From: a virus
Reading direction: 5' to 3' (one strand)
Virus record (IMG/VR): IMGVR_UViG_3300042879_005480
Span: 1 to 26,013 of that record
Length of the DNA stretch: 26,013 nucleotides
Part shown: in pieces, positions 1 through 25,981 of the stretch
Numbering within the stretch: the first letter of the stretch is position 1
How the letters are laid out: each line of letters begins with the position of its first letter
Position numbers and translations under genes: made by a program
The notes under the pieces: model-generated
What the model was told of the DNA's origin: nothing
The model's database searches: none
What the model saw: only the letters and a program-made list of their open reading frames with translations

Positions 1-2
1 AC

Positions 3-1172: not shown

Positions 1173-1188
1173 CTGCAGTGTGTATAAT
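1161..1188 (+). promoter_or_regulatory. Putative sigma70 promoter for queE
   Basis: TTGGAT (1161-1166), a 16-nt spacer and a perfect TATAAT (1183-1188). The queE ATG begins only 5 nt after the -10 box, so a transcript starting at the usual distance would be leaderless. No Shine-Dalgarno sequence is visible. Confidence 0.55.
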
Positions 1189-1193
1189 ACAGT

Positions 1194-2048: not shown

Positions 2049-2077
2049 CGCCAGACGTCATGTTAGGAGTATTGGAT

Positions 2078-2464: not shown

Positions 2465-3117
2465 ACGACCCGTTGAATCTAAACACGCATGGCAAAACAA
2501 TAGGTACAGGCCAAGCTGTGTTTATGGGATGCAGTTTTACCACAGGCGTTGGAGTTGATCCTGACCAAAGATACAGTAGTTTGATGGCCAAACATTGGGG
2601 TGTGCAAGAAGTAAATCTAGGCACTTTGATCCTCAATAACTACAAAAGTTTTGATGTGTTTTCACAGTTGAAATTTTCATCATCTGGCAATCCTGTTGTA
2701 CTACAGTTGACTGAACTCAGTAGAATACAAACCTATCAATCACAGGCGCCAAGCATTAGATTTTTATCAAACCAACCAAGTAGATCATACCTTGAAGTTT
2801 ACAACGATCAATTTTTGATTTTTGAATTGGTAAAAAATCTAAGATGGTTTGTTGCTATGTGTAGAATGCAACGCCTTAATTTAGTAATGTGGAGCATCGC
2901 TCGGCTCGAACACTCTTTGCATATGATGTTAGAACAGTATCTCGGCCAGTACCAGGAGTATGTTTTTTTATCAAGCATTCTAGGTGACCCTGAATCATAT
3001 CGAGTAGACAATGGCAGCGACGGCACTGATCAGTTAGGTACTGGGCATCCAGGACCTTTGAGTCACCAACGAATTGCTGAAAAATTGCTGCACCATTACC
3101 ACAAGCTATATCAATGA
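2461..3117 (+). CDS. SGNH/GDSL-like hydrolase-fold protein
   Basis: 218 aa. The N-terminal block FMGCSFTTGVGVDPDQRYS looks like block I of SGNH hydrolases, with the candidate nucleophile Ser in GCSFT. Near the C-terminus GTGHPGPLSHQRIAEKL resembles the block carrying the catalytic His. SGNH enzymes are esterases or sugar O-acetyl modifiers; phages often carry such proteins next to glycan genes. ATGA overlaps at both ends place it between the 2078 gene and the cytidylyltransferase. Substrate unknown. Confidence 0.6.
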   Translation: MNDPLNLNTHGKTIGTGQAVFMGCSFTTGVGVDPDQRYSSLMAKHWGVQEVNLGTLILNNYKSFDVFSQLKFSSSGNPVVLQLTELSRIQTYQSQAPSIRFLSNQPSRSYLEVYNDQFLIFELVKNLRWFVAMCRMQRLNLVMWSIARLEHSLHMMLEQYLGQYQEYVFLSSILGDPESYRVDNGSDGTDQLGTGHPGPLSHQRIAEKLLHHYHKLYQ

Positions 3118-3590
3118 TATTCAATCACATCAAAGAACTCAAAGCACAAGGAAAAAGAGTTGGCATCACTTTCTCAACTTTTGACATGCTTCACGCGGGC
3201 CACATTGCAATGCTCTCGGAAGCCAAGAATCACTGTGACTACCTCATTGCCGGGCTGCAAACCGACCCAACTATCGATAGACCCGAAACTAAAAATCGCC
3301 CTGTACAATCTATTGTTGAGCGACAAATACAGTTGGCAGCATGCCGTTATGTTGATGAAGTTGTTGTATACCAAACCGAACAAGATCTTGTTGACCTCTT
3401 GTTGATTCTTCCGTTAGATGTTCGTATTCTAGGCATTGAATATGCCGAAAAGGATTTTACCGGACGTTACGAAGGCAGCGAGCGTGGTATTGAACTGGTG
3501 TTCAATGGTCGAGATCACTCGTTCAGCAGTAGTAGCCTGCGCAAGCGTGTGGTAGCAGCAGAAACAGAAAAAGTGCTATTGCAAAAATGA
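3114..3590 (+). CDS. Cytidylyltransferase-like nucleotidyltransferase (TagD/RfaE2 type)
   Basis: 158 aa. The sequence VGITFSTFDMLHAGHIAML holds the HxGH nucleotide-binding motif (HAGH, residues 27-30). The C-terminal FSSSSLRKRV matches the conserved Ser/Thr-Arg segment. Family members activate glycerol-3-phosphate or heptose phosphate with CTP or ATP for glycan building. Flanking SGNH-like genes and the upstream methyltransferase suggest a glycan or lipid modification set, which is inference. Confidence 0.8.
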   Translation: MIFNHIKELKAQGKRVGITFSTFDMLHAGHIAMLSEAKNHCDYLIAGLQTDPTIDRPETKNRPVQSIVERQIQLAACRYVDEVVVYQTEQDLVDLLLILPLDVRILGIEYAEKDFTGRYEGSERGIELVFNGRDHSFSSSSLRKRVVAAETEKVLLQK

Positions 3591-4297
3591 TTCTATACGT
3601 CAACGGTTGCAGCCACACTGCTGCTGCCGAAGCAGTGGTGCCTGACTGTTTTGCTGTAGATGATGGCAGATATGGCATAGATCGCAGACCACATCCCACA
3701 AATTTAGCTGCCAGCTGGTGCACCTATGTGGCAAGAAAATTGGCAATGGATTTGGTTTGCGATGCAGAATCTGGTGGTAGCAATCCTAGAATCGTGCGCA
3801 CAACCAAAGCTTGGGTAGAACACCATCCAGAGCTTTGGGCTGAAACTTTGGTGCTGATACAATGGACCACATGGGAAAGAGAAGAATGGTTTCACCAAGG
3901 TAAATGGTACCAGGTCAATGCTTCGGGAGTTGACTGGGTACCAGACTCTCTGCAACAACGTTATAAAAATTTTGTAGTAGAAGTAGACTGGAACCAAGCT
4001 ACCAAAAGATGTCATGAAATGGCTTGGGACCTGCACCAGTGGCTGCTGGTCAAGGGCATCAAACATGTATTTTTCAGTGGACATTCCACATTCAGCGATA
4101 TAGACAACCAATTTGATTGGGGACTCAGCTATATCAAACCATACCAACGCAATGCCAGCTATCATAATTGGTTGTTAGAAAACGGTGGTTGCTATGCCAA
4201 TCCAAAAACCTACCATTTTGATGCCAAAAGCCATAGACTTTGGGGCGAACATGTGTTACAATACATTCATTGTAACCAAATTTTAGCCCATCAATGA
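3587..4297 (+). CDS. SGNH-like hypothetical protein
   Basis: 236 aa beginning MILYVNGCSHTAA. GCSHT is a block I-like motif with a Ser, and FDAKSHRLWGEHVL near the C-terminus supplies a D-x2-S-H pair like the distal catalytic block. It has no signal peptide. It starts by ATGA overlap with the cytidylyltransferase and ends by overlap with the exonuclease gene. It is not obviously a duplicate of the 2461 gene; they share only the general motif layout. Confidence 0.55.
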   Translation: MILYVNGCSHTAAAEAVVPDCFAVDDGRYGIDRRPHPTNLAASWCTYVARKLAMDLVCDAESGGSNPRIVRTTKAWVEHHPELWAETLVLIQWTTWEREEWFHQGKWYQVNASGVDWVPDSLQQRYKNFVVEVDWNQATKRCHEMAWDLHQWLLVKGIKHVFFSGHSTFSDIDNQFDWGLSYIKPYQRNASYHNWLLENGGCYANPKTYHFDAKSHRLWGEHVLQYIHCNQILAHQ

Positions 4298-5382
4298 AAT
4301 ATCTATTGATCGACTCATCCAATATGTTTTTTCGCGCTCGGCATCAAGCACACCGAGCCAGTGATACATGGACCAAATTGGGTTTTGCTATTCATTTGAC
4401 TCTAATGAGCGCTAACAAGGTTGCTCGTAATTTTGGGGCCGATCATGTGGTTTTTGCATTGGAAGGGCGCAGCTGGCGTAAGGATCATTACCAAGCCTAC
4501 AAAGCAAATCGTGCAGAAGCTCGTGCGGCATTGAATGAAACCGAAGCAGAAGAAGACAAACTGTATTGGGAAACCTACGACGAGCTGACTAAATACTTGT
4601 CTACAAAAACAAACTGTAGCGTAATCCGTTGCGCCACTGCTGAAGCAGATGACGTCATTGCTCGTTGGATTGCGTTACATCCCCAAGATGAACATGTGGT
4701 AGTCAGCAGTGACTCAGATTTTGTGCAATTGGTTGCACCCAATGTGCAACTCTACAACGGTATCACTGATGTATTGTTCACAGTAGATGGTGTTTTTGAT
4801 TCCAAAGGAAAATCGTTGGCATTTTCAGTTGAAAGCAACTCAAAGATCAAAGTGGGTAAACCAGATCCTAACTTTGTTGTGCCAGCCAACTACAACCGTT
4901 GGGCGCTGTTTCTCAAATGCATGCGCGGCGATCCTGGTGACAATGTGTTTTCGGCTTTTCCAGGTGCGCCCGTGCGCGGTTCTAAAAACCGTGTGGGACT
5001 CACTGAAGCATTTGAAGATCGTGATCGTCGAGGTTACAACTGGAACAATCTTATGTTACAACGCTGGACTGATCACAACGGCATTGAACACCGCGTGTTA
5101 GATGACTACGAACGCAATCGTATCTTGATCGATCTCACTGCGCAACCCCAAGAAATAAAACAAACAGTGGATCAATGCATTCGTGAGCAGGTCAGTCACC
5201 GAGATGTCGGCATGGTAGGTGCACATTTTCTCAAATTTTGTGGTCGGTACGAGCTGACCAAACTCAGCGATCATGCAGATGCAGTGGGTCGTTGGATGAA
5301 TTACACATACAAAGGAGTGCTCAATGACACTGATAGCAAAACCAGTGGTAGACAAACAGTTTTGGATAGTCAAGCAAGATAA
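4294..5382 (+). CDS. 5'-3' exonuclease, T4 RNase H/flap nuclease family
   Basis: 362 aa. Metal-binding motifs are in order: LLIDSSN (D7), ATAEADDVIARW (E117, D119, D120), VVSSDSDFVQLV (D140, D142) and RGDPGDNVFSAFPG (D213, D216), the last being the start of the helix-hairpin-helix that grips DNA. This enzyme type removes RNA primers and 5' flaps during phage replication. There is an unusual stretch at about 165-190 between the PIN-like core and the H2TH region. ATGA overlap couples it to the upstream gene; its 3' end overlaps the next gene by 59 nt. Confidence 0.85.
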   Translation: MKYLLIDSSNMFFRARHQAHRASDTWTKLGFAIHLTLMSANKVARNFGADHVVFALEGRSWRKDHYQAYKANRAEARAALNETEAEEDKLYWETYDELTKYLSTKTNCSVIRCATAEADDVIARWIALHPQDEHVVVSSDSDFVQLVAPNVQLYNGITDVLFTVDGVFDSKGKSLAFSVESNSKIKVGKPDPNFVVPANYNRWALFLKCMRGDPGDNVFSAFPGAPVRGSKNRVGLTEAFEDRDRRGYNWNNLMLQRWTDHNGIEHRVLDDYERNRILIDLTAQPQEIKQTVDQCIREQVSHRDVGMVGAHFLKFCGRYELTKLSDHADAVGRWMNYTYKGVLNDTDSKTSGRQTVLDSQAR

Positions 5383-5770
5383 TCAAAAAGTTGGCAACAT
5401 TCAAGCCAGTGCAGATGGTTATCAAGTTACTTTGAATAATCAAGTAGCCAGCTATAAAACGCTGCCAGCTCTACGCCGCACAGCCAACATTGAATTCGAA
5501 CCCGCAGAAACTGCATCCAAGCCTGTAAATGATCAGGTTCATGGCTATGACACAGGATGCCGCGCCTATAACGGTATGTGGAATGTACAAATGCGAGTTC
5601 CACTTTTTACCAAACAATCCAAGTCTAAATCTTGGTTTGCAGCTGGCTGGTACATGGTCAAACAACATCGAGCTTGGCGGGCTGTAAAAAATCCCAAACT
5701 TATTGTGCTGCAACGTTATGCTTATCAAGGACCATTTCACAGCAAGGAGCAAGCCAATGAATCCGTTTAG
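5324..5770 (+). CDS. Conserved phage hypothetical protein
   Basis: 148 aa. AAGGAG (5311-5316) precedes the ATG and supports this start inside the 3' end of the exonuclease gene. The N-terminus (KQFWIVKQDNQKVGNIQASADGYQVTL) reads like a small beta-rich module with a repeated strand pattern, and the C-terminal half has many aromatic and basic residues. No known catalytic motif. It is translationally linked to the exonuclease and MazG-like genes. Confidence 0.7.
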   Translation: MTLIAKPVVDKQFWIVKQDNQKVGNIQASADGYQVTLNNQVASYKTLPALRRTANIEFEPAETASKPVNDQVHGYDTGCRAYNGMWNVQMRVPLFTKQSKSKSWFAAGWYMVKQHRAWRAVKNPKLIVLQRYAYQGPFHSKEQANESV

Positions 5771-6116
5771 AGATCAAGAAAAATTTATGCGAGCCTGTGA
5801 TCAGACCACAGACCGTCAGAATCTTGAGCAGTACCAAATGTACTGCAATCTCATCCGAGAAGAATTTGAAGAATTAATGGCCAGTCAAACTGCCGAGGAC
5901 GATCTTGATGCCTTGATCGACATTCTTGTGGTCACAATTGGTGCCATACACAGCCTGGGCGCCGATGCCGAGGGCGCATGGAAAGAAGTCATGCGTACCA
6001 ACTTTGCCAAAATTGATCGCGAAACTGGCAAAGTTCGCAAACGTGAAGATGGCAAAGTGCTCAAACCTCAGGGTTGGACCCCACCCGATCTCAAACCTTT
6101 TGTAAAAAAACAATGA
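5757..6116 (+). CDS. MazG-like nucleotide pyrophosphohydrolase
   Basis: 119 aa. The ATG at 5757 follows AAGGAG (5744-5749); the longer frame from 5703 has no such site. Metal-binding helices typical of all-alpha NTP pyrophosphatases are visible: EEFEEL at 35-40 and EDDLDALIDILVVT at 47-60 (ExxE then a D-rich helix). These enzymes hydrolyse (d)NTPs to monophosphates and PPi, controlling nucleotide pools or alarmones in infected cells. It sits in the replication-related part of the operon, directly after the exonuclease pair. Confidence 0.8.
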   Translation: MNPFRDQEKFMRACDQTTDRQNLEQYQMYCNLIREEFEELMASQTAEDDLDALIDILVVTIGAIHSLGADAEGAWKEVMRTNFAKIDRETGKVRKREDGKVLKPQGWTPPDLKPFVKKQ

Positions 6117-6364
6117 AAACACGCGAGCAAATTATAACGTCTATGTGTTATACTTGGCGGCATGATTATGGGCTAACAAAGCATCCTGATCCCGGAGGCT
6201 ACAATTTTCCTCTTGAGTCTGGCATGACACCCGAAGAACAACAGGCTCTTTGGCATCAAATGGCACAGATTTTTGATAATGACATTGCACCATACATGGA
6301 ACCAAAAACTCAGTCTGATCGTACCTGGGCTCAAGACAGCCGCAGCAATTGGATTGAGCCATGA
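6113..6364 (+). CDS. Small phage hypothetical protein
   Basis: 83 aa starting MKTREQIITSMCYTWRHDYG. The start at 6113 is chosen because ATGA overlaps the stop of the MazG-like gene and the first residues are typical of this small-protein class. A segment GMTPEEQQALWHQMAQIFDNDI suggests a helical domain. No function recognised. Confidence 0.7.
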   Translation: MKTREQIITSMCYTWRHDYGLTKHPDPGGYNFPLESGMTPEEQQALWHQMAQIFDNDIAPYMEPKTQSDRTWAQDSRSNWIEP

Positions 6365-6570
6365 GCTTGCACATCAACAGATTTGTAGATGCCATCAAGG
6401 CTGCTGAAAGTCGTGCACAGCGTGACCTAACCATGAGCCTGCGTGATGCCAAAGATCTACATGCTGACATTACCAAATTGTTATTGACCTTGCAATCTTT
6501 GCAGCAGACCACTCAAACTGCTCAAACTGTGGAAGTTGTAATGTCAGGCGGCAGTTTCAAAAGTACATAG
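6361..6570 (+). CDS. Small helical phage protein
   Basis: 69 aa, overlapping the previous stop by ATGA. Most of the protein is predicted helical with heptad-like Leu/Ala spacing (residues ~5-50), possibly a coiled coil, ending in a short Gly/Ser tail. No function recognised. After its stop the sequence AGTTTAT…ATAAACT (6569-6589) can form a weak hairpin before the next gene. Confidence 0.65.
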   Translation: MSLHINRFVDAIKAAESRAQRDLTMSLRDAKDLHADITKLLLTLQSLQQTTQTAQTVEVVMSGGSFKST

Positions 6571-6601
6571 TTTATGGCATAAATAAACTACGGAGAAAGC
6601 A

Positions 6602-6898
6602 ATGAGTCGGCCCAAGCCTACAGTGCTAATTGAGCACACAGACAAGCACACGTACAAGACTGAACAGGTGTTGGCGTCGGAAGGAGTGTGGGCAGTGTTC
6701 TATGATTCCAAGCCCATCAATCTCAAAACTTCAAACTTGCTTACACAGTATCCTGGACCTAAATACAAAAAAGTTAGTTTTTCCAATCCAGGTCATGCTA
6801 GAAACTTGGCCAAGAAATTGAACACACAGTTCCGAACTGACAAATTCACTGTGGTATTGTTGACACAAGGGGCACAAGTGTACCCCAATGCCAACTAA
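6602..6898 (+). CDS. Small phage hypothetical protein
   Basis: 98 aa. The ribosome site GGAGA (6592-6596) lies 5 nt before the ATG. It is a basic alpha/beta-looking protein with VLIEHTDKHTYKTEQVLASEG near the N-terminus and a Lys-rich C-terminal half. The layout (N-terminal strand, central YPGPKYKK loop, C-terminal strand) is seen in T4-like phage hypotheticals, from memory only. It overlaps the next gene by 11 nt. Confidence 0.65.
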   Translation: MSRPKPTVLIEHTDKHTYKTEQVLASEGVWAVFYDSKPINLKTSNLLTQYPGPKYKKVSFSNPGHARNLAKKLNTQFRTDKFTVVLLTQGAQVYPNAN

Positions 6899-7256
6899 AG
6901 CAGCACTCACTCGCATAGTTTTAGATCTTTTGCAGGATCAAACAGCTTACGATTTTGACTCAGCATTGACACTGTGGTGGCAGGACAGTCGTGATATAGG
7001 CGGTATGCGATTGACACCCAGTGGCCATGAGCACTTTCAACAAGCAAGTTTTGAATATTGGAAGTTTGATATTGCCACAAACAAACCAGTAAAGCCAGTA
7101 CATTTTTTGATGTTGACCATGTACTTGCAGATGCCATACTTTCTAGATCTTGGAAAAAAACGCAGCATCAGTTTTTATAGCAGCAAAGAAGCCACACTGT
7201 ATGCATTGTATGGTGACATAGACAAATTTGTCAATGCGCTAGAAAACTTTGGCTAA
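6888..7256 (+). CDS. Phage hypothetical protein
   Basis: 122 aa. It starts inside the 3' end of the preceding gene without a strong ribosome site, suggesting coupling. Aromatic residues are frequent (LWWQDSRD, FEYWKFD, MYLQMPYFLDL). Its last 18 nt overlap the convergent minus-strand gene. No known domain recognised. Confidence 0.65.
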   Translation: MPTKAALTRIVLDLLQDQTAYDFDSALTLWWQDSRDIGGMRLTPSGHEHFQQASFEYWKFDIATNKPVKPVHFLMLTMYLQMPYFLDLGKKRSISFYSSKEATLYALYGDIDKFVNALENFG

Positions 7257-8177
7257 ATCGGCTGTGGCTTTGCTAACCATCCAGGGTAAAAAATCGTTTA
7301 GAACATAGCGCTGATTTTTTGCAATGCGATCTGCCAATGCCGTGAAGTCAGTTTGACCAGTGATCACATCATGATTCAACTGCAAGGCAGCTTCTACACG
7401 GCAATCATTGTCTAGCCAATCGTAGCTGGTATCTACCAAATCATCAAACATGTCAAAGCCAAGTTCTTTGCAATCTTGCACAGCACCTGGGTGACCAATC
7501 ACTATGGGAATTTGTCGAGCCACAAATGCATAAAGAGTTTTCTCGCAAATCACGCCTGGCCTGGCTTGGTAATCAGTTTCTGTCACACAGTTGACTTGGC
7601 TACGTTGATACAAAGGCAATAGTCTTACAAAGTTTTCATAGTTTTCTGTACCACGATAAGTGCTGTAGTCCCACTGTGGCAACGGTATCTTGGTACCTAG
7701 ACTCAGCGTCCCGCCTGACCAATTTCGTAGGATGTCAGCGGCTCGACGCCTGTGAGCACAGACTCTGCCATTGAGACACTGCCAGGCCTGAGTCTTTGGA
7801 TGATCAAGTGCCAGCTGCCATTGTTCTTTGATTCTGAGTAAATCAGTGATAGTCAACCAGTTATGACTGCTGAACTCTACTAGTTGTACTGGACCGCGGT
7901 AAATTTTATCTAGCCCATGGCTGTAATACACCACCACAATCTGCGATGATTTTGAACCATAATGATTCTCGATCGCTTGGAGTTCTCTACAGCCATTGAC
8001 AGTGGGTGTGATTCTGTCTTGAAAGTGTAAAACCAGTCTGGTATTGGCGTGCCAATTGATCAAAGGCAAAGCAAGTGGCCATCCATTATCCGAGTAGGGC
8101 GGTTGCAGCGTATTGAATCTACAGTGCACATCAAAGCCCCTGGACTCAAGACTGGTACGCACAAGTTGCTCTATCAT
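7239..8177 (-). CDS. Glycosyltransferase-like phage protein, copy A
   Basis: 312 aa. The C-terminal part (…GVICEKTLYAFVARQIPIVIGHPGAVQDCKELGFDMFDDLVDTSYD…) has the pattern of C-terminal halves of fucosyltransferase-like GT domains and many T4-like phage proteins: EKT followed by a region ending P-I-V-I-G, then LGFD-x-F-x-D and a YD. The N-terminal ~150 residues are not recognised. It is on the opposite strand to its neighbours and related to the 8854-9924 gene. Such proteins may glycosylate phage or host components; this is inference. Confidence 0.55.
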   Translation of the reverse strand: MIEQLVRTSLESRGFDVHCRFNTLQPPYSDNGWPLALPLINWHANTRLVLHFQDRITPTVNGCRELQAIENHYGSKSSQIVVVYYSHGLDKIYRGPVQLVEFSSHNWLTITDLLRIKEQWQLALDHPKTQAWQCLNGRVCAHRRRAADILRNWSGGTLSLGTKIPLPQWDYSTYRGTENYENFVRLLPLYQRSQVNCVTETDYQARPGVICEKTLYAFVARQIPIVIGHPGAVQDCKELGFDMFDDLVDTSYDWLDNDCRVEAALQLNHDVITGQTDFTALADRIAKNQRYVLNDFLPWMVSKATADLAKVF

Positions 8178-17223: not shown

Positions 17224-18123
17224 ATGAAAAAATTTCTTACCATGCTGTTGGTGTCTTTGAGTTTGAATGTCTGGGCCAAAGAAACTGTGACCATATATTA
17301 TGCCTGGACTGCTGCTGACACACAGGCCAATTTTCATCGTGTGCTGGCCGACGAAGCCAATAAAATACAATCTCGTTACCATTTTGTGTTTGACACAAAG
17401 CCAGGCGCAGGCGGCAGCATCGCGGCCAATCATGTATTGAATTCTTCCAACTCATTGTTGGCCACCAGTTCTGCATTCTATGTCAGACCAAATTTTTTCC
17501 CCAACGAAAGTCACGATATTTCCAAGTTTAGGCTGTTGTTTCCACAGTGTGCAGCACCAGCTGCGGTCACAAGTCGCAAGTTTACTAGCTGGGATCAGGT
17601 ACCAGTTGACCGTGCAATCAGTATTGGTGTCAGCGGTATGGGCACAACCACACATTTGATAGCACACCAAATCACTGCTCGTTATCCCTTGGCCATCATT
17701 GTGCCGTTCAAAAGTACCACAGAAGCCATACTGGGTGTGGTCAGCGACAGCGTAGATTTGGCTGTAAACTTTTTGGGAGAATCTGCACAGTATGTTGAGC
17801 AAAAACGCCTGACTGTTCTGGGCGTCACAGGCTCGCAGGCAGTGGCCGGACATGCCACTTTGTCTTCACAAGGATTTGCTAAAAATCTCGAAGCCATGAC
17901 CATACCAGCTCAAATTTTAGCTCCAAACAATTTTCCTGAATCCAAAGTTCAAGAAATCAGATCTATCCTTCGCAGAGCCGGACAGCGTACATCAGTTACA
18001 GACAGTTACAAAGTAGATTTTTGCTTAAACAATAATCAAATGTCAGACAATGACATTGCAACTTGGTTTGTGCGGCAAACCACGGATTGGCGCCGAATCA
18101 CACAAGGCGTGTCACTGAAGTAA
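17224..18123 (+). CDS. Bug/TctC-like periplasmic binding protein 1
   Basis: 299 aa. A signal peptide is clear (MKKFLTMLLVSLSLNVWA, cleavage near 18). KPGAGGSIAANHVLNS at ~59-74 matches the NRPGAGGxIAA block that defines Bug/TctC solute-binding proteins, and the later VPFKSTTEAILGVVSDSVDLAV matches their V-P-Y-K-G block. These proteins bind carboxylates for tripartite tricarboxylate transporters or signal to sensors. Neither TctA nor TctB is nearby. The segment after the signal (YYAWTAADTQAN) departs from the usual P-x-x-A-G-G-x-x-D, so ligand binding may be altered. Confidence 0.75.
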   Translation: MKKFLTMLLVSLSLNVWAKETVTIYYAWTAADTQANFHRVLADEANKIQSRYHFVFDTKPGAGGSIAANHVLNSSNSLLATSSAFYVRPNFFPNESHDISKFRLLFPQCAAPAAVTSRKFTSWDQVPVDRAISIGVSGMGTTTHLIAHQITARYPLAIIVPFKSTTEAILGVVSDSVDLAVNFLGESAQYVEQKRLTVLGVTGSQAVAGHATLSSQGFAKNLEAMTIPAQILAPNNFPESKVQEIRSILRRAGQRTSVTDSYKVDFCLNNNQMSDNDIATWFVRQTTDWRRITQGVSLK

Positions 18124-19265: not shown

Positions 19266-19460
19266 ATGTTCACTGCTCGCAATGCCAGACTGCAACGTCT
19301 AGCCGAACAGGCCGGCATTGAACTCACCAATGACATAGAATTTTTTGGCGAGCTAGTGGCCGAGGAGTGTGCGGACATTGCAGACTCAGCAACCGCAGTT
19401 GATCTGCCTGCTGCGCCTGTGATTCGTAGACATTTTAGTCTGCCAGAGCCAAAAAAATAA
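19266..19460 (+). CDS. Small phage protein, distant FAELIVREC family member
   Basis: 64 aa starting MFTARNARLQRLAEQAGIEL. The core FFGELVAEECADIAD and final IRRHF align with FAELIVRECA…IKQHFG of the 11138 and 11594 proteins. It lies directly upstream of the permuted tmRNA gene. Confidence 0.6.
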   Translation: MFTARNARLQRLAEQAGIELTNDIEFFGELVAEECADIADSATAVDLPAAPVIRRHFSLPEPKK

Positions 19461-19461
19461 A

Positions 19462-19750
19462 TACAAGTTATTGCTGTATGAAGCAAAGAGAAACAGGTCT
19501 TGGACGCGAGTTCGAATCTCGCCATCTCCACCTAAATGTATTGAGGTATATTTAGGTGGGGATGAAAATGGTTTCGACAGGGCAAAGAGTAACAGAGTGG
19601 ACAGCAGGGTAGGCGATGACCCCAAATCAAGCAAAATCTATAACTGCAAACGCAGCTAACGACGAAGTCTTCGCTCTCGCAGCGTGATTTCCGAGGCAAC
19701 TATGCCTTGTCATCCAAAATAGTAATAGGGACTTTGGTCCCTATTTTTTC
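19462..19750 (+). ncRNA. ssrA: Circularly permuted (two-piece) tmRNA gene
   Basis: The halves of the tRNA-like domain occur in reversed order. First comes the acceptor piece: GGACGCGAG-TTCGAAT-CTCGC T-arm (19502-19522), acceptor strand CATCTCC (19523-19529), A, CC. A 19528-19559 loop (CCACCTAAAT/ATTTAGGTGG) follows, then the normal 5' end GGGGATG (19558-19564) pairing with CATCTCC, and the conserved GGTTTCGAC. The tag frame ends at TGA 19685-19687 and codes …ANAANDEVFALAA. A terminator hairpin (TAGGGAC/GTCCCTA) plus T6 lies at 19727-19748. In permuted tmRNAs the loop is removed, leaving two RNA pieces. The CCA is not fully encoded (CCT). The tag end is betaproteobacterial in style. The 5' boundary and resume codon (19631 or 19646) are uncertain. 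Confidence 0.9.
19727..19748 (+). terminator. Terminator of the tmRNA gene
   Basis: TAGGGAC-TTTG-GTCCCTA followed by six T residues, about 40 nt after the tag stop. Confidence 0.85.
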
Positions 19751-19820
19751 TGTAACTGTCTAACTTTGATACATAGAAAACCAACTGAGAGTTGGTCAAT
19801 CATTCAACCAAAGGAAAAAA

Positions 19821-20714
19821 ATGCGGAAATTAATTTTGGCAGTTGCCATGCTGTTGTCAAACAGTGCGTGGGCTCAAAATATCACAGCGGTTGTAACTGG
19901 TCCAGCAGGTTCAGCCACTGATACCTTTGCCAGAGCTATCATGAAGCGCTATGACGAGCTGCACGGCACAGTGACTATAACGTTGAATCGTCCAGGTGGC
20001 AACGGGATAGTCGGGATCAATGCATTCAATGAATTGCCTCGAGACTCAACAAAAATTCTGTTTCCTTTTACTGGACACATGGTCAATCTTTCCGAAACTG
20101 AGCTATCACGATACACTGGTATACTAGAGGTCAGCCGCTCACCTTTATCAATCTATTGCAAACAGGATCTAGCTGCAAGCAATTGGTCAGAATTTGTAGC
20201 GCTGGCCAAAAAAACCACTGGCAAAATCAACATTGGTACCACTCAAGCAGTTTGGCCTACTCTGGCAGCTCTTGAACGCGATCATGGCATCAGCTTCAAT
20301 TGGATACTGTATGGTGGTACCAGTCGGCCTGAGTTTGATGTCATGAACGGCACGCTGGATTGTACTTTCACTTTGCCAGCTTTGACCAACGAAGCAATGT
20401 TGGCACGCGGCAAAGTGATTGTGGTGTTTAGTTCTGACCCAGGCAAAAATGCTGACGCATCGCTGTATCGAGGTGCAGAAGCGGGTAACCATTATCTTGG
20501 TACCGGTGCATGGGTGTCAGTAGACATGCCTGCTGCCAATCGAGAAAAATTGATACGAGAACTTCAGGAAATAATTCGCAGTCGCTGGGCCGAAGATTAT
20601 TTCACCAGCCGAGGGTCACGTCCAGGTGGTTCGGTAGCAGAACTCAACAAACGCATTCGTGAAATGAATGTTGGTTGGAATCGCCTCAAACTGCAGAAAA
20701 AAGTAAATGAATGA
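19821..20714 (+). CDS. Bug/TctC-like periplasmic binding protein 2
   Basis: 297 aa. Signal peptide MRKLILAVAMLLSNSAWA, then VVTGPAGSATDTFAR (27-38), the P-x-G-x-x-x-D block of Bug/TctC proteins, and NRPGGNGIVGINAF (56-69), the matching NRPGxGGxIG block. Later INIGTTQAVWPTLAALERDHGI resembles the ligand-binding middle segment. Closer to the family than the 17224 gene and probably able to bind a carboxylate in the periplasm. AAAGGAA precedes the ATG; a hairpin CCAACT/AGTTGG sits in the leader. No transporter genes nearby. Confidence 0.8.
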   Translation: MRKLILAVAMLLSNSAWAQNITAVVTGPAGSATDTFARAIMKRYDELHGTVTITLNRPGGNGIVGINAFNELPRDSTKILFPFTGHMVNLSETELSRYTGILEVSRSPLSIYCKQDLAASNWSEFVALAKKTTGKINIGTTQAVWPTLAALERDHGISFNWILYGGTSRPEFDVMNGTLDCTFTLPALTNEAMLARGKVIVVFSSDPGKNADASLYRGAEAGNHYLGTGAWVSVDMPAANREKLIRELQEIIRSRWAEDYFTSRGSRPGGSVAELNKRIREMNVGWNRLKLQKKVNE

Positions 20715-20832: not shown

Positions 20833-21714
20833 ATGAAGAAAGCAATTATCTCGGCCGCTTTGATGGCCACCACTGCATTGGCTTCGGCACAGGTCACTGT
20901 GTACGGTCGACTCAATGCCACTGTGGACAATACCAAGACTGGTGCTACCACTGTGAACAGCATGATCAACGATGCCAGTCGCATTGGCTTCAGGGTCACT
21001 GAGGATCTTGGCCAAGGTCTGTCCGCTCGTGCTGTGATCGAAACATCAGTGGCCAGCACAGACCCCACTGTGGGCAGCGATACTCAACTGGGCAATCGTC
21101 AAAGCACAGTGGGCCTGGCCACCCGCGCCGGCAGCATTGATTTGGGTCGCCAACTACATGGCGTGTTTACCACCCTGGCCGATGGCGATGCATTTGGCGC
21201 AGCCTACGGCAGCTTGGCCGGTGACGTTCATAACCTGCGTGGTAATCGTCTTGGCAATGCTGTGTTTGTGAGAATCACTGCTGCTCCTGGAGTGGGTGTT
21301 GGCGTTGATCGCACTCACACTGCCACCGGCGCAGAAGCCACAGTGTACAGTGCTACTGCCACAGTGGCTGGCATTGCCCTGGGTGCAGCTCGCTTTGATC
21401 AAGGCAATGAGCGCAGCACAGTGGCCAGCGCAGGCCTGCGTCGTGGCAACACTGGTGTGTTCTACAGCTTCAGTGACAATTCTGGCGCCACTGTGAGCAA
21501 GGGTCACTTGGTGGGCGTGAGCCACCGACTGGGTGCTGTCACTGCCAAGGCCAGCCTTGGTCGCACTGATCGCGATGTCAATGCCTACAACGTGGGCGCC
21601 GAGTATGCTTTCAGCAAGCGCACTGATCTATTGGTCAGCTACCGCAACGTCGACGCTGCTGGAACCAGCAGCGATGTCCGGCAAATTGGTGTGGGTGTTA
21701 CACACCGCTTCTGA
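20833..21714 (+). CDS. Outer-membrane porin, Burkholderiales type
   Basis: 293 aa. Signal peptide MKKAIISAALMATTALASA is followed by QVTVYGRLNATVDN, the first strand signature of betaproteobacterial general porins. Further features: SRIGFRVTEDLGQGLSARAVIE, QSTVGLATRAGSIDLGRQ, and a C-terminus ending GVGVTHRF with the terminal Phe needed for barrel insertion. It is shorter than typical (350-400 aa), so some loops are trimmed. It has its own strong promoter and terminator. Expected role: forms a trimeric channel in the host outer membrane during infection. A similar phage-borne porin is known from coliphage PA-2 (Lc/NmpC type). Confidence 0.85.
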   Translation: MKKAIISAALMATTALASAQVTVYGRLNATVDNTKTGATTVNSMINDASRIGFRVTEDLGQGLSARAVIETSVASTDPTVGSDTQLGNRQSTVGLATRAGSIDLGRQLHGVFTTLADGDAFGAAYGSLAGDVHNLRGNRLGNAVFVRITAAPGVGVGVDRTHTATGAEATVYSATATVAGIALGAARFDQGNERSTVASAGLRRGNTGVFYSFSDNSGATVSKGHLVGVSHRLGAVTAKASLGRTDRDVNAYNVGAEYAFSKRTDLLVSYRNVDAAGTSSDVRQIGVGVTHRF

Positions 21715-22136: not shown

Positions 22137-22223
22137 GCTCGAGTGGTGGAATAGGTAGACACAAGGGACTTAAAATCCCTCGCCGGCAACGGCGTGCCGG
22201 TTCGATTCCGGCCTCGAGCACCA
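22137..22223 (+). tRNA. tRNA-Leu (UAA)
   Basis: Acceptor GCTCGAG/CTCGAGC, anticodon stem AGGGA/TCCCT with loop CTTAAAA, long variable arm CGCCGGCAACGGCG, T-loop TTCGATT, CCA encoded. Confidence 0.93.
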
Positions 22224-22227
22224 CAGT

Positions 22228-22304
22228 GCCCCGGTGATGGAATTGGTATACATGCCGGTCTTAGAAGCCGTATTTTGCGAGTTCGAGTCTCGCCTGGGGC
22301 ACCA
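22228..22304 (+). tRNA. tRNA-Leu (UAG)
   Basis: Acceptor GCCCCGG/CTGGGGC, loop CTTAGAA (UAG), T-arm GCGAG/CTCGC, CCA encoded. The anticodon stem has a C-T mismatch at its base, and the variable region is only about 7 nt where Leu tRNAs normally have a long arm. Confidence 0.85.
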
Positions 22305-22314
22305 CAAGTTTTTT

Positions 22315-22390
22315 GCACGGTTCGTCTATCGGTTTAGGACACTAGCCTTTCACGTTAGTAAGACGGGTTCGATTCCCGTACCGTGTACCA
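22315..22390 (+). tRNA. tRNA-Glu (UUC)
   Basis: Acceptor GCACGGT/ACCGTGT, anticodon stem CTAGC/GTTAG with loop CTTTCAC (UUC), T-loop TTCGATT, CCA encoded. Confidence 0.92.
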
Positions 22391-22545
22391 GTTTGATAGG
22401 GAGAGCTGCCGCGAGGCTCGCTCTTAAACGACCCGTAGAACTCCCGGGCGTCCCGTAGCAGTTTTTAGCAGTTGCTTGAATCGTGGTTCGCTCCACCAGA
22501 CCGACACGCCCAGAGCGTATCGAAGTAAGATTCCAACTGCTTTTT
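22391..22545 (+). ncRNA. Structured RNA, tRNA-like fragments, unassigned
   Basis: No CDS. GGGAG/CTCCC and CGGG-CGT-CCCG hairpins are followed by a T-arm-like GTGG-TTCGCT-CCAC with CCA, but no complete tRNA fits. AGCAGTTG (about 22468) pairs with CAACTGCT (about 22534), with further nested pairing (GAATC/GATTC, CGCTC/GAGCG). It lies between normal tRNA-Glu and tRNA-Tyr. Confidence 0.4.
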
Positions 22546-22638
22546 GGAGGTCTTGCAGCTATGGCGTGTGCTGCACCGGACTGTAAATCCGGTCCCCCGT
22601 GGTAAACATTCGCGGTTCAAATCCGTGGACCTCCACCA
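22546..22638 (+). tRNA. tRNA-Tyr (GUA)
   Basis: Acceptor GGAGGTC/GACCTCC, anticodon stem CCGGA/TCCGG with loop CTGTAAA (GUA), long variable arm as expected for bacterial Tyr, T-loop TTCAAAT, CCA encoded. Confidence 0.92.
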
Positions 22639-22644
22639 TGTTAT

Positions 22645-22771
22645 GTGCGTTTCGTCTAACCAACGGACAAGACAGAGGGCCATATAAGTCTACAGTGGAA
22701 ACACAACACTGAAAAGTGCGGTAGCGGTGGAATGACTTCAGAATGCGGGTTCGAATCCCGTAACGCACGCC
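22645..22771 (+). tRNA. Abnormal tRNA with ~50-nt insertion
   Basis: Acceptor GTGCGTT (22645-22651) pairs with AACGCAC (22762-22768); D-arm GTCT/AGAC; T-arm GCGGG-TTCGAAT-CCCGT. Between D-arm and T-arm are about 70 nt instead of ~25, containing a hairpin CAGTG/CACTG inside AAGTC/GACTT. A possible anticodon loop CATATAA (UAU) would have A at position 33. The 3' end is GCCG, so CCA is not encoded. It may be an intron-bearing, variable-arm-expanded or non-translating tRNA. Confidence 0.55.
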
Positions 22772-22997
22772 GAATACTAAAACAATGACTAGTAAGATAG
22801 TAGATGGAAACCGACCCATGCGAGAATGCGTGGGCTTCAGGATATAGGTGCTGGTAAAACGGTGCGAGTTGTCTTGACGATGCGAAAGTAAGTCGGTCCA
22901 GTAGGGTATGAAAAGCATTGTTGGCGGTGATGCTGTGGAAGGACAGAAGTTAGGTTTTAGCCCAACTGGCATAGACTTAGCGCCGCGTATTCCTTCA
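22772..22997 (+). ncRNA. Structured non-coding stretch
   Basis: No CDS supported. CCCATGC-GAGAAT-GCGTGGG forms a 7-bp hairpin near 22815. Several G-rich and A-rich linkers follow. No tRNA, tmRNA, RNase P or known riboswitch core was recognised. Confidence 0.3.
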
Positions 22998-23097
22998 CTA
23001 TATTGAAGCACATTGCTTGCCTGACCGTAAAAGTCGTGATAAACTACAAGAGACAGAGGGTTCAAATCCCTGGGACTGGTAGTGTGTTTCAATATGG
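22998..23097 (+). ncRNA. Long hairpin 1 with tRNA T-arm in its loop
   Basis: Arms CTATATTGAAGCACAT (22998-23013) and GTGTGTTTCAATATGG (23082-23097). The loop holds CTTG…CAAG, a CGTAAAA loop and a T-arm-like GAGGG-TTCAAAT-CCCTG preceded by AGAGAC. It lacks a D-arm. It resembles part of a tRNA capped by an extended stem. Related to the hairpins at 23278 and 25385. Confidence 0.55.
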
Positions 23098-23277
23098 TAG
23101 TGGAGTAATTGACCGTTACTGTAGTCGGAAATCATGACTCCGATGACCCGTGGTAGTGTAATGGCTAACACGCAGAGAGACATGGGTTCGAATCCCATCC
23201 GTCCTACAACGGGCGGTAGCTTAGTGGTCTAGAGCGCGGCGAGATGGTGGTTTCGAAATCCACCCCACAATGGGTCG
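23098..23277 (+). ncRNA. tRNA-like pair without normal anticodon arms
   Basis: Two D-arms (GTGTAATGGCTAACAC at ~23155; TAGC…AGAGC at ~23217) are each followed by only about 10 nt (containing AGAGAGAC or GCGAGAT) before the next stem. A perfect T-arm ATGGG-TTCGAAT-CCCAT (23182-23198) runs into CCGTCC-TACAAC-GGGCGG (23199-23216), then a D-arm. That order, 3' acceptor strand, short loop, 5' acceptor strand, is what a permuted tRNA would show. GGTGG-TTTCGAAAT-CCACC (~23246) has a 9-nt loop. No CCA. Assignment is uncertain. Confidence 0.4.
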
Positions 23278-23373
23278 CTATATTGAAGCACATTACACGT
23301 CATGTAACTAGCGGTGGTAGCCTAGTGAAGGGTGCGATTCCTACCGAATCGTTTATAGTGTGTTTCAATATAG
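23278..23373 (+). ncRNA. Long hairpin 2, followed by T5
   Basis: CTATATTGAAGCACAT (23278-23293) pairs over all 16 positions (two G-U) with GTGTGTTTCAATATAG (23358-23373). Loop hairpins TTACA/TGTAA and CGATT/AATCG are present. The element is followed by TTTTT that also begins the region of tRNA-Asp, so it could terminate transcription or be processed. Confidence 0.55.
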
Positions 23374-23378
23374 TTTTT

Positions 23379-23458
23379 GGCCGACGGGACTGCATGGAGT
23401 GGTCGCTTGCCTGTCACGCAAGAGAGTCAGAGGGGATCGTTACCCCTGTCGGTCGCCA
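23379..23458 (+). tRNA. tRNA-Asp (GUC), divergent
   Basis: Acceptor GGCCGAC/GTCGGTC, anticodon arm CTTGC-CTGTCAC-GCAAG (GUC), discriminator G, CCA. The T-arm AGGGG-ATCGTTA-CCCCT lacks the usual TTC loop start, and the variable region is 8 nt. Probably functional for Asp but unusual. Confidence 0.75.
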
Positions 23459-23464
23459 AAGTTT

Positions 23465-23559
23465 TTGCGCATGGTGTAATGGAAGCACAGAAAGTCCGAG
23501 ACACAGCGATGTGGGGTAGGCATCGAGATGCCAGGAGCGGTTCGATTCCGCAGCGCAAT
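23465..23559 (+). tRNA. Abnormal tRNA-like gene with insertion
   Basis: TTGCGC (23465-23470) pairs with GCGCAA (23553-23558). D-arm GGTGTAATGGAAGCAC and T-arm GCGG-TTCGATT-CCGC are clear. Between them about 48 nt include hairpins CACA-GCGA-TGTG and GGCAT-CGAG-ATGCC; no convincing anticodon arm can be drawn. No CCA follows (AATC). Confidence 0.45.
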
Positions 23560-24126
23560 CTAAGTTTCGCAAGTGTTAGCAAGAGAAAGACACATCACAA
23601 TATAGTTTCTTCGAAGGACTATGTGGTGTAAGGCAACGGGGGGCGCAAAACCCTAGCAAAAAATAGACACGTTGGTCCAGTATCCCAAGTAACGTACCAC
23701 CTCCCGTCCGGACTAGCATGAATCGGGTGAATGGTAGAGATCACAGTGGCTCTGCTACTTGCGAATCCTACGTTCCAGCGTCACTGGATATTGTGGTCCC
23801 ACAAGATGAGAAGTGAGGTGACACTCACGGGCGGTACTGTTCTAGCCGAAACAGCGTTGGCAGCACGACAGCGGTCCCGGTCGAGAAGCGGGTGGAAGGT
23901 GTGTGAGATTTGCGGGGCAACCCAAGAGATGATGCACTACAATTACCGCCGCGGGACGCAGAGCATTTGCGTTTTTATAGTCAAGCATCGATACAGGAGA
24001 GGGCCCGGGACGCCGGGTCTATGGCAGCATCCGGCCGGGATGGTAATTGCCTGAACCTAACTGTTGACCTCGGCTGTGGCACAGAAGCACTGGACGCCTA
24101 AATTGGTACGATCTCGGTGCTTGACT
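23560..24126 (+). ncRNA. Gene-poor structured region
   Basis: No CDS I can support. It has a bulged helix (ACACATCACAATATAG against CTATGTGGTGT, ~23591-23630), GTGAG/CTCAC near 23814, CCCGG-GACG-CCGGG near 24004 and a likely terminator ACGCA…TGCGT plus T5 at 23957-23977. One loop, CGCAAAA within GGGG/CCC (~23640-23654), resembles an anticodon loop with G33. The 107-aa frame at 23731-24054 looks accidental. Confidence 0.35.
23956..23978 (+). terminator. Probable terminator
   Basis: ACGCA-GAGCATT-TGCGT stem followed by TTTTTA. Confidence 0.5.
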
Positions 24127-24645
24127 ATGAAAACCCTACGTAAACTTTTGATTGGTTTGTTGCTCATGCCTGTCATGGCCTGGGCCTGTTCAGGTTGGGT
24201 CATTGGCTTTCGTGGTCAGAACGAAGTGTTTGACTATGAAGCCTTTGCAGATTATGCTGTGATCCAGGGCCGATGCTTTAGATCTTTTTCATGGAACCAA
24301 GGCGCCGAAGCCGAACGCATGCTCACGGCTGTAAAAGTTCCCTACGAGCTGTATGGCTTCAGCCGTGGTGCCCAAACAGTGGCCAGCCTGTTGCGACAGG
24401 GTCGTGTGCGCCCAGATCGTGTGATCACAGTGGGTGCGTTTCGCACTGTCAACGTAAATTTTGATCGGCACGGCATTCCATACCGTAACTATTTTGATAG
24501 ATCAGGTCAGGGTCAACTCAGTCCAGGTGTGTATTTGGATGTGGATCATGGTCGTGTTCAACGCACCGTGACTGAAATCTATCGAGCAAAGAATTCTGGG
24601 AGAGTTGCTAATATTGGCCTAAGGGCGACCCTTATAAAGTCGTAA
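24127..24645 (+). CDS. Exported GxSxG (alpha/beta-hydrolase-like) protein
   Basis: 172 aa from the ATG at 24127. Signal peptide MKTLRKLLIGLLLMPVMAWA with cleavage before CSG; the Cys is not in a good lipobox. The nucleophile-elbow motif GFSRGA (G-x-S-x-G) with a preceding strand YELYGF suggests a lipase/esterase fold, but the protein is short for one and the His of a triad is not obvious (candidate in DVDHGRV). The stop codon lies inside the following tRNA gene (24598-24698), so CDS and tRNA overlap by 48 nt. Start has no clear ribosome site. Confidence 0.65.
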   Translation: MKTLRKLLIGLLLMPVMAWACSGWVIGFRGQNEVFDYEAFADYAVIQGRCFRSFSWNQGAEAERMLTAVKVPYELYGFSRGAQTVASLLRQGRVRPDRVITVGAFRTVNVNFDRHGIPYRNYFDRSGQGQLSPGVYLDVDHGRVQRTVTEIYRAKNSGRVANIGLRATLIKS

Positions 24646-24698
24646 GCACCGTCTAGATAAGGCGGCGAATGTGGGTTCGATTCCCACCTCTCCTACCA
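24598..24698 (+). tRNA. tRNA-Ile (GAU)-like with D-loop insertion and A33
   Basis: Acceptor GGGAGAG/CTCTCCT, discriminator A, CCA; anticodon stem CCGTC/GGCGG; T-arm GTGGG-TTCGATT-CCCAC. The D-loop carries an extra hairpin TAAGGG-CGA-CCCTTA (24620-24634), making the gene 101 nt long. The anticodon loop is TAGATAA, so anticodon GAU is preceded by A33 instead of the almost universal U33; the normal tRNA-Ile at 25827 has the same stem with TTGATAA. Overlaps the upstream CDS 3' end. Confidence 0.7.
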
Positions 24699-24934
24699 AG
24701 TTAAACTGACTGCTGTGTGTGAAATCGTTGACAACGAGCCCAACTGCCAGGGAACGACGTTATCCACAGCCGCTGATCGGGCGCAAGTCGCGAGGACTGC
24801 TAGTCACAGTCATATCATGCGAGTGGAGGGATGCTGGGTCTACTGATTCAGGTACCCTTGAACACAAGGCAGTAGCGGTCGGTTTATCCAATTGAGTTGA
24901 ACGCACACTGAAAATGCGTTACACTAAATACTGA
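24699..24934 (+). ncRNA. Structured spacer between tRNAs
   Basis: No CDS seen. CTACTG…CAGTAG encloses CCTTG-AACA-CAAGG (24840-24875), and AACGCA…TGCGTT (24900-24920) forms a hairpin just upstream of tRNA-fMet. The other half has no clear feature. Confidence 0.35.
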
Positions 24935-25010
24935 CGCGGCGTGTTAGAAGCGGTATCTGGCCAGGCTCATAACCTGGAGGTCGGTGGTTCGATTCCACCC
25001 GTCGCAACCA
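24935..25010 (+). tRNA. Initiator tRNA-fMet (CAU)
   Basis: Acceptor CGCGGCG against CGTCGCA leaves C1:A72 unpaired, the bacterial initiator hallmark, with GCAACCA 3' end. Anticodon arm CCAGG-CTCATAA-CCTGG. Its stem has only two of the usual three consecutive G-C pairs next to the loop, so it may initiate less strictly. Confidence 0.85.
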
Positions 25011-25055
25011 AATTTGGCGTGTTGTATAAATACAGCACAAGATAATCGTTTGTGG

Positions 25056-25084
25056 TTGACACACAATCATAAATAAAGTACAAT
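25056..25084 (+). promoter_or_regulatory. Strong promoter of second short unit
   Basis: TTGACA (25056-25061), 17-nt spacer, TACAAT (25079-25084). The first ATG at 25092 is where transcription should start. Confidence 0.75.
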
Positions 25085-25091
25085 AGGACTT

Positions 25092-25220
25092 ATGATGAAA
25101 ACTGCGACTCATTCACTGTTGAAGCCCACAATGTGCTGCCAAGCTCAGGCCTGGTCACGTGGATTTGCGACCGTGAATAGTATTCCAGGCTGTCAGGGGT
25201 CCCGAGGAGACAAGGTGTAA
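25092..25220 (+). CDS. Possible leaderless 42-aa peptide
   Basis: Frame beginning MMKTATHSLLKPTMCCQA, Cys-containing and basic at the end. AGGA is 6 nt before the second ATG but would lie upstream of the expected transcript start. Coding status uncertain; the unit may act as RNA. Confidence 0.3.
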   Translation: MMKTATHSLLKPTMCCQAQAWSRGFATVNSIPGCQGSRGDKV

Positions 25221-25253
25221 TCAAAAACTACACCCAGAATTCAAAAGGACCCC
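25196..25253 (+). promoter_or_regulatory. Anti-terminator-like stem of second unit
   Basis: GGGGTCC (25196-25202) pairs with GGACCCC (25247-25253), whose CCCC is also the first arm of the terminator. A nested GGTGTA/TACACC hairpin lies inside. The design matches the unit at 21762-21921. Confidence 0.6.
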
Positions 25254-25277
25254 AGGACTAAACACCCTGGGGTTTTT
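25250..25277 (+). terminator. Terminator of second short unit
   Basis: CCCCAGG…CCTGGGG stem with a 9-nt loop followed by five T residues. Confidence 0.9.
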
Positions 25278-25280
25278 CAT

Positions 25281-25384
25281 TTAGTGCACTGGCAACGCGA
25301 GCCAGCATCACTCTAAACTGCAAATGAGGGCGGCCTACCGGATGGTAAGTTCCAGGCGATAACTGGAATGTGTAAAATGGTAGC
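25281..25384 (+). other. Short spacer before hairpin 3
   Basis: No gene. A TTCCAG/CTGGAA hairpin (25350-25367) is visible; nothing else recognised. Confidence 0.4.
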
Positions 25385-25451
25385 GTATCGAAGCATATTG
25401 GACTGGTCGTAAAATCATCGTTGGACTTAGAGACTTGGTATGCTTCGATAC
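25385..25451 (+). ncRNA. Long hairpin 3
   Basis: GTATCGAAGCATA (25385-25397) pairs perfectly over 13 bp with TATGCTTCGATAC (25439-25451). The 41-nt loop contains CGTAAAA and AGAGAC, both also in hairpin 1. Arm changes relative to hairpins 1 and 2 are compensated on the other arm. Confidence 0.6.
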
Positions 25452-25480
25452 ACGCATTGGCAACAGTGCGTCAATGATAT

Positions 25481-25555
25481 GGGCTGATAGTGATAATGGG
25501 AGCACATGGGCTTTGCAAGCCTGAGGTCGGGGTTCGATCCCCCGTCGGTCCACCA
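25481..25555 (+). tRNA. tRNA-Ala (UGC)
   Basis: Acceptor GGGCTGA/TCGGTCC, anticodon loop TTTGCAA (UGC), T-loop TTCGATC, CCA encoded. Confidence 0.9.
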
Positions 25556-25560
25556 TGTTT

Positions 25561-25635
25561 ATCTCGGTAAGACAACGGCAGTCGTCAGGTCTCCAAAACC
25601 TTGAAGTGAGGGTTCGAATCCTTCCCGGGATGCCA
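25561..25635 (+). tRNA. tRNA-Trp (CCA)
   Basis: Acceptor ATCTCGG/CCGGGAT, anticodon loop CTCCAAA (CCA), discriminator G, CCA encoded. The base of the anticodon stem has one mismatch. Confidence 0.9.
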
Positions 25636-25645
25636 AAATTTCTGT

Positions 25646-25719
25646 TGGGGATTAGTTAAATGGTATAACATCGGATTTTGATTCCGGATTTGGGAGTTCG
25701 ATTCTCTCATCCCCTGCCA
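25646..25719 (+). tRNA. tRNA-Gln (UUG)
   Basis: Acceptor TGGGGAT/ATCCCCT (T1:T72 unpaired), anticodon arm TCGGA-TTTTGAT-TCCGG (UUG), discriminator G, CCA encoded. Confidence 0.9.
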
Positions 25720-25726
25720 AATAAAT

Positions 25727-25822
25727 GGAAGCGTTAGCCGAATCGGCATAGCGGCAGCAGTCTTGAAAACTGAGGGCCCAGTGACCCTGGGTGTGTGAGT
25801 TCGAGTCTCACCGCTTCCACCA
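25727..25822 (+). tRNA. tRNA-Ser (UGA)
   Basis: Acceptor GGAAGCG/CGCTTCC, loop CTTGAAA (UGA), long variable arm, T-loop TTCGAGT, CCA encoded. Confidence 0.93.
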
Positions 25823-25826
25823 ATAT

Positions 25827-25903
25827 GCCTCCATAGCTCAGTTGGTCAGAGCACCGTCTTGATAAGGCGGGGGTCCGTGGTTCGAGCCCACGTGGCGGCA
25901 CCA
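25827..25903 (+). tRNA. tRNA-Ile (GAU)
   Basis: Acceptor GCCTCCA/TGGCGGC with one mismatch, anticodon stem CCGTC/GGCGG with loop TTGATAA (GAU, normal U33), T-loop TTCGAGC, CCA encoded. Confidence 0.92.
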
Positions 25904-25905
25904 CA

Positions 25906-25981
25906 GGCGACGTAGCTCATCAGGTAGAGCAGCAGACTGAAAATCTGTGTGTGGTTGGTTCGAGTCCAACCGTTGCCACCA
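25906..25981 (+). tRNA. tRNA-Phe (GAA)
   Basis: Acceptor GGCGACG/CGTTGCC, anticodon arm GCAGA-CTGAAAA-TCTGT (GAA), T-loop TTCGAGT, CCA encoded. Confidence 0.92.

Follow-up and report, generated by a model that had tools for sequence, protein, structure and literature searches.

A phage-encoded, circularly permuted tmRNA gene of the beta type with a tag found only in viruses

Background

Two-piece tmRNAs of phages have been described before: one is encoded by the Methylophilales myophage Melnitz, and in a phage set of 2021, 53 of the 133 unique tmRNAs were two-piece, 50 of these 53 being aquatic (PMC9004378). A further source gives 79 unique bacteriophage tmRNA sequences and introduces the model RF04321 (PMC11915505), and huge phages with both tmRNA and SmpB have been noted (PMC7162821). 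The gene analyzed here lies in a window of 26,013 bp, which is an entire IMG/VR virus record. Like Melnitz and the pelagiphages (PMC9004378), the window combines a permuted two-piece tmRNA with an aquatic myophage, but the Melnitz gene is related to alphaproteobacterial ones and carries a glutamine riboswitch, whereas the gene of the window is of the beta type, gives no riboswitch match and has a tag shared with a family of large phages.

Among cellular genes, the bacterial beta type (RF01850; e.g. in Sulfurisoma, Rhodocyclaceae and some Burkholderiaceae) resembles that of the window in gene order, in a short hairpin (25 nt in many), in an ACC without the final A and in an ANDExFALAA-like tag, but the bacterial tags are mostly 10 residues long (ANDERFALAA, ANDEQFAIAA and similar) and none of them is ANAANDEVFALAA. 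The standard one-piece tmRNA (RF00023) has the same expected function, but unlike the gene of the window it is not permuted. The phage isolates DLP_6, Marzo (Menderavirus), Rb1 and BUCT628 also have permuted, RF04321-positive genes, but with other tags (ANDDSFAPMAIAA, VAANDDSYTVRIAA and others) and on separate branches. Of these four records Marzo's alone is annotated as tmRNA; the gene is unannotated in DLP_6, Rb1 and BUCT628, which are phages of Stenotrophomonas, Xanthomonas and Acinetobacter. The published two-piece genes and these isolates contradict an earlier note on this DNA, made from its sequence, in which a phage copy was called unusual. Two-piece phage tmRNAs are thus already known; new at the level of the family are the virus-only tag and the swapping of tags and inserts between similar RNAs.

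Results

Identification and anatomy of the permuted tmRNA

Positions 19468-19745 (+) of the window are a circularly permuted, beta-type tmRNA gene encoded by a phage (Table 1). RF04321 matches 19472-19687 (+) with 125.7 bits (E 1.5e-24, gathering cut-off 47, model positions 1-213), and beta_tmRNA (RF01850) matches 19420-19747 (+) in full length with 115.6 bits, above its gathering cut-off of 84; the beta model is the best of its clan, and since clan overlap keeps the best match only, the alpha and cyano models are unreported. ARAGORN calls a tmRNA* at 19441-19778, in agreement with the covariance models, and no match to RF00023, the standard one-piece order, was reported in the window, so that the permuted models win. 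The tag-less form known from DS6A was ruled out for this gene by its complete tag frame. These searches, which the earlier note had proposed as checks, support its reading of a phage-encoded, permuted tmRNA of the beta type, and the order that it had read, with the T-arm and the 3' acceptor strand ahead of the 5' strand and the tag, is found exactly as described (19506-19687).

The arms CCACCTAAAT and ATTTAGGTGG, said in the note to extend the acceptor stem, do so in a predicted hairpin of 19 pairs formed with the intervening segment; the whole 280 nt fold with z = -4.85, and 0 of 200 shuffles were equally good. The incomplete CCA had been called unusual too; the beta Rfam consensus reads ACCc, and the tmRNA database paper states that not every gene has CCA encoded at this position (PMC11915505). 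An unencoded final A is normal for beta-type genes. The covariance-model alignment of the window has mismatches in the region of the long-range helix, the RF04321 scores of strong bacterial permuted genes (123-176 bits) reach higher than that of the window, and no sigma-70 promoter was scored on the + strand near the gene. Judged from its sequence and that of its relatives, the two-piece tmRNA of the window is real and probably working.

Table 1. Features of the permuted tmRNA gene and of two protein genes in the window
Feature	Positions	Strand	Basis or remark
RF-1 domain (GGQ) only protein, 124 aa	14796..15170	+	PF00472 8e-16; PDB matches to RF1 domain 3
TctC-like exported binding protein	17224..18123	+	PF03401; upstream neighbour of tmRNA in several relatives
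Permuted tmRNA gene (precursor)	19468..19745	+	conserved 5' segment to end of terminator stem, 5' end approximate; RF04321, beta_tmRNA, ARAGORN
Acceptor piece	19472..19532	+	RF04321 alignment, acceptor covariation
Inter-piece helix, strand UGCUG	19472-19476	+	alternates in relatives
T-arm	19506-19522	+	read from the sequence, RF04321 alignment
3' acceptor strand CATCTCC	19523-19529	+	precedes ACC
ACC	19530-19532	+	end of acceptor piece
Intervening segment, 25 nt, expected to be removed	19533..19557	+	hairpin extending the acceptor stem (fold)
5' part of coding piece	19558..19645	+	holds acceptor strand, GGTTTCGAC, CAGCA and TAACT
5' acceptor strand GGGGATG	19558-19564	+	7-bp stem with CATCTCC, including G3.U70
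GGTTTCGAC	19570-19578	+	between 5' acceptor strand and tag
Inter-piece helix, strand CAGCA	19602-19606	+	pairs with UGCUG
Resume context TAACT	19641-19645	+	directly 5' of the resume codon
Tag frame GCA AAC GCA GCT AAC GAC GAA GTC TTC GCT CTC GCA GCG TGA, most likely ANAANDEVFALAA and stop	19646..19687	+	resume context, relatives
3' part of coding piece	19688..19723	+	similar to this region in other ANAANDEVFALAA genes, e.g. GGCAACTATGCCTTG..CCAAAATAGTA
Intrinsic terminator AATAGGGACTTTGGTCCCTATT and T run	19724..19750 (stem to 19745)	+	terminator call, fold

A comparison of about 150 viral relatives shows strong covariation in the two-piece acceptor stem. In 155 unique viral genes, acceptor pairs 4-6 switch on both sides (GC/CG; CG/GC/AU; UA/AU), there is hardly any variation at pairs 1, 2 and 7, and 152 of the genes have G.U as pair 3. 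G3.U70 is a known identity element for alanine. The helix between the two pieces reads UGCUG/CAGCA in 85 genes and is compensated as UGUUG/CAACA in 29. These are raw gene counts, which include kinship between the genes.

A tag restricted to viruses

The tag of the window most likely comprises 13 residues, ANAANDEVFALAA, with the resume codon placed at 19646 because of the conserved context, which is UAAAU|GC in the models and UAACU|GCA in the window. In the earlier note the tag starts three residues late, as ANDEVFALAA (start 19655); judged by the relatives and by the resume context, both this 10-residue version and the 11-residue AANDEVFALAA of ARAGORN (start 19652) begin too late. ARAGORN itself gives ANAANDEVFALAA for 18 unique relatives. 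The tag is encoded by 16 different synonymous DNA versions, that of the window included, and its near variants are few (ANAANDEVYALAA, ANASNDEVFALAA). Over its last 11 residues it is laid out like the tag of E. coli, in the SspB/ClpX-type manner.

A degenerate pattern for the ANAANDEVFALAA coding sequence matched 31 viral contigs and none of 84,980 bacterial and archaeal species genomes (contigs of at least 3 kb only); across these cellular genomes and the viral contigs, the 13-residue tag is found in viruses only. The looser pattern ANDExFALAA has matches in 78 of 399 Burkholderiales genomes, none of which has V at position x.

The phage family and its locus

The lineage consists of large, T4-like phages from freshwater. 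A query with the GGQ protein retrieved 242 viral contigs and one with the neighbouring 425-aa protein 35, and at least 120 viral contigs share the conserved 5' segment of the tmRNA gene. RF04321 matched 27 of 50 records searched whole in a first set and 39 of 50 in a second; only the former is a fair rate for the tmRNA, because the second set includes contigs picked by the tmRNA pattern. The permuted tmRNA is present in 13 of the 16 relatives that reach 100 kb and whose GGQ protein shows an identity of 68% or more, and since three have no match, the gene is not strictly essential. T4-type gp23 capsid genes are present in 19 and terminase genes in 16 of 20 large relatives. SmpB was found in none of 26 large phage records, and therefore host SmpB is presumably used.

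The order QueE, nucleotidyltransferase, exonuclease, MazG, GGQ, orf15420, orf15916, TctC, tmRNA recurs piecewise in many contigs. The position among exported-protein genes, odd in the opinion of the earlier note, is therefore normal for the family. Two binding proteins of the TctC type and a Porin_4 porin are encoded in the window (17224-18123, 19821-20714 and 20833-21714). In relatives, the first of the two TctC genes is likewise seen close to the tmRNA, and so, less often, is the porin gene. At least 12 tRNA genes are arrayed downstream of the tmRNA (22137-25981). It also includes tail fibre and QueE genes. In 120 Burkholderiales genomes, searched without a positive control, the porin had no match at E <= 1e-20, and a DNA search of a phage collection with positions 1-8000 gave a single weak match.

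The GGQ protein, a conserved marker of the family, matches domain 3 of RF1 only, including an RTY..P..RVTDH-like region, and the codon-recognition domains are absent. From these matches it is a plausible candidate for a second release or ribosome-rescue factor, or for a peptidyl-tRNA hydrolysis factor. The phage thus has two genes of rescue type. This gene, like the virus-only tag and the mosaicism of the tags, had gone unmentioned in the earlier note.

Probable exchange of tags and intervening segments

We calculated a tree of the RNA bodies from 151 columns, with the tag and the intervening segment left out. On this tree, 10 changes are required to explain the 19 ANA-type tags (9 are forced by starred branches; the shuffled mean is 18.2), their grouping into one clade is rejected (AU p = 0.0002), and the 11 long tags described below need 9 changes. 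The contigs L250 and L316 have bodies 99.4% identical and tag DNA 27% alike; they share an ORF in the intervening segment, and the tag is ANDSQFALAA in one and AKANTTVTVSGKNVKFSARTAKESLAV in the other. The body of the window pairs with that of L003, which has the tag ANDEQFALAA (support 95/90); the tag of the window and the 45 nt after it are closest to ANAANDEVFALAA genes, with a downstream identity of up to 0.84 versus 0.62 for L003. As the ANAANDEVFALAA tag occurs on several separate bodies, tags and 3' parts appear to have been exchanged. Such an exchange is the simplest reading of these sequences, and the gene of the window itself looks mosaic; with 151 columns, part of the apparent mosaicism could come from limited signal, and single placements in the tree are unsure.

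Several relatives (11 loci) have tags of 26-30 residues, e.g. AKASTGEVTVSGKGVKFSARTAKAESFAV, with synonymous and non-synonymous differences. Most of these share a conserved SGK..KFSAR.AK core and end in LAV, FAV or VLA, not LAA. A search with one of them matched no known family, and the PHROGs and Pfam searches with long tags and nested ORFs gave nothing convincing, the best match being a sub-threshold DUF6552.

The intervening segment, which has no ORF in the 25 nt of the window, reaches 274 nt in phages, whereas its length in those permuted genes of bacteria that we examined is 6-43 nt (25-43 nt in most of the beta type). A Shine-Dalgarno-preceded ORF that fills at least 60% of the segment is present in 18 of the 113 distinct segments with a length of 60 nt or more, versus 2.3 on average and at most 9 in dinucleotide shuffles; only ORFs closed within the segment were counted, and many others that start there run into the RNA body. 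Nested small ORFs were seen at five viral loci and at others, and some are homologous between phages (e.g. LKELQE.LAKDLV... and M.N.SKW.VI..ILLFI..EMTT). In the literature that we searched, outside of which most subscription journals lie, we saw neither an exchange of tags nor protein ORFs within the intervening segment described; a tRNA gene and a repeat have been reported from this segment (PMC11915505).

Discussion

The explanation that best accounts for the whole is a working, permuted two-piece tmRNA of the beta type, an established gene of a freshwater lineage of large T4-like phages, in which two kinds of module, the tag plus 3' part and the intervening segment, are exchanged; we give it a probability of roughly 0.8. 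From the anatomy, the covariation, the constrained tag, the conserved locus and the lack of SmpB in large relatives, all observed here, and from established tmRNA biology we infer the following course from processing to degradation. The phage would transcribe a single precursor ending at the gene's own terminator, and the 25-nt segment would be excised by the tRNA-processing enzymes of the host, with RNase P acting at the 5' acceptor strand and with trimming of the 3' end and addition of CCA. Pairing in the acceptor stem and in the UGCUG/CAGCA helix would hold the two resulting pieces together. The tmRNA would be charged via G3.U70 by the AlaRS of the host, whose SmpB and EF-Tu would bring it to ribosomes that have stalled on broken mRNA. 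Such a ribosome would then add Ala and ANAANDEVFALAA, stop at UGA and be freed, and the peptide would be marked for degradation by the usual LAA degron. The tag with the 3' part, and likewise the intervening segment, would move between tmRNA bodies by recombination.

An alternative is that the phage tmRNA mainly re-programmes tagging, i.e. that it outcompetes the host tmRNA and that its tag gives peptides a different fate, with slower or altered degradation or the use of different adaptors; tags would then differ and be exchanged because tagging is re-programmed. This would agree with the absence of the tag from the 84,980 genomes, with the swapping of tags between bodies and with the long tags of relatives that lack an LAA end, but the tag of the window keeps AANDE...ALAA, for which a standard degron is the simpler reading, and we regard re-programming as its main role as unlikely. 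A broader proposal, somewhat less doubtful but still tentative, is that large T4-like phages keep a two-piece tmRNA pool of their own, in which cassettes of tags and segments are exchanged under selection; it would yield phage-specific tags (the 13-residue ANAANDEVFALAA and the basic ones of 26-30 residues without LAA ends) that alter the fate of rescued peptides, as well as small protein genes nested in the removed segment.

The remaining alternatives deny the gene of the window a working role or a phage origin. It would be passive cargo if it were a captured host or phage RNA gene that sits next to the tRNA array without benefit, or a decaying remnant; the large array downstream and the relatives without the gene fit this, but strong covariation, an intact tag frame with synonymous variation, a terminator of its own and a conserved locus make it improbable. 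Slightly more improbable still is a decoy that blocks trans-translation of the host, for which the model is the tag-less form of DS6A, an inhibitor of tmRNA in E. coli (PMC11915505). A relative, the 108.6-kb phage contig G038, has no permuted match and does have such a DS6A-like RNA of 82 nt (about 1582-1501 (-); RF00023 61.6 bits, encoded CCA), but a decoy needs neither the complete, constrained tag frame nor the stop codon of the window. That bacterial DNA or an assembly chimera was filed as viral is hardly credible: the nearby TctC and porin genes look bacterial by family, but parts of the locus order recur in many viral contigs, including long ones with gp23 and terminase, the window has a tail fibre and QueE, the tag occurs in no bacterial genome searched, and the porin has no close match in the 120 Burkholderiales genomes.

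Conclusions

A working two-piece phage tmRNA with exchanged modules, the reading that we prefer, bears on the hosts as well. Strong permuted matches (at least 123 bits) occur in only 16 of 399 Burkholderiales genomes, and ARAGORN reads the next five matches above the cut-off as one-piece genes, so the one-piece tmRNA appears to be the form in most of the Burkholderiales sampled. If the host is an ordinary member of this order, phage and host tmRNA forms would differ, and if it has a one-piece tmRNA, two-piece phage genes would need to work in hosts with another architecture; the same demand may hold for the isolates from Stenotrophomonas, Xanthomonas and Acinetobacter. The tmRNAs of phages make up a separate reservoir, and with a tag shared by many phages and absent from the 84,980 cellular genomes, and with swaps between near-identical bodies, it can now be tested whether these RNAs serve the recovery of ribosomes only or also control what becomes of the tagged peptides.
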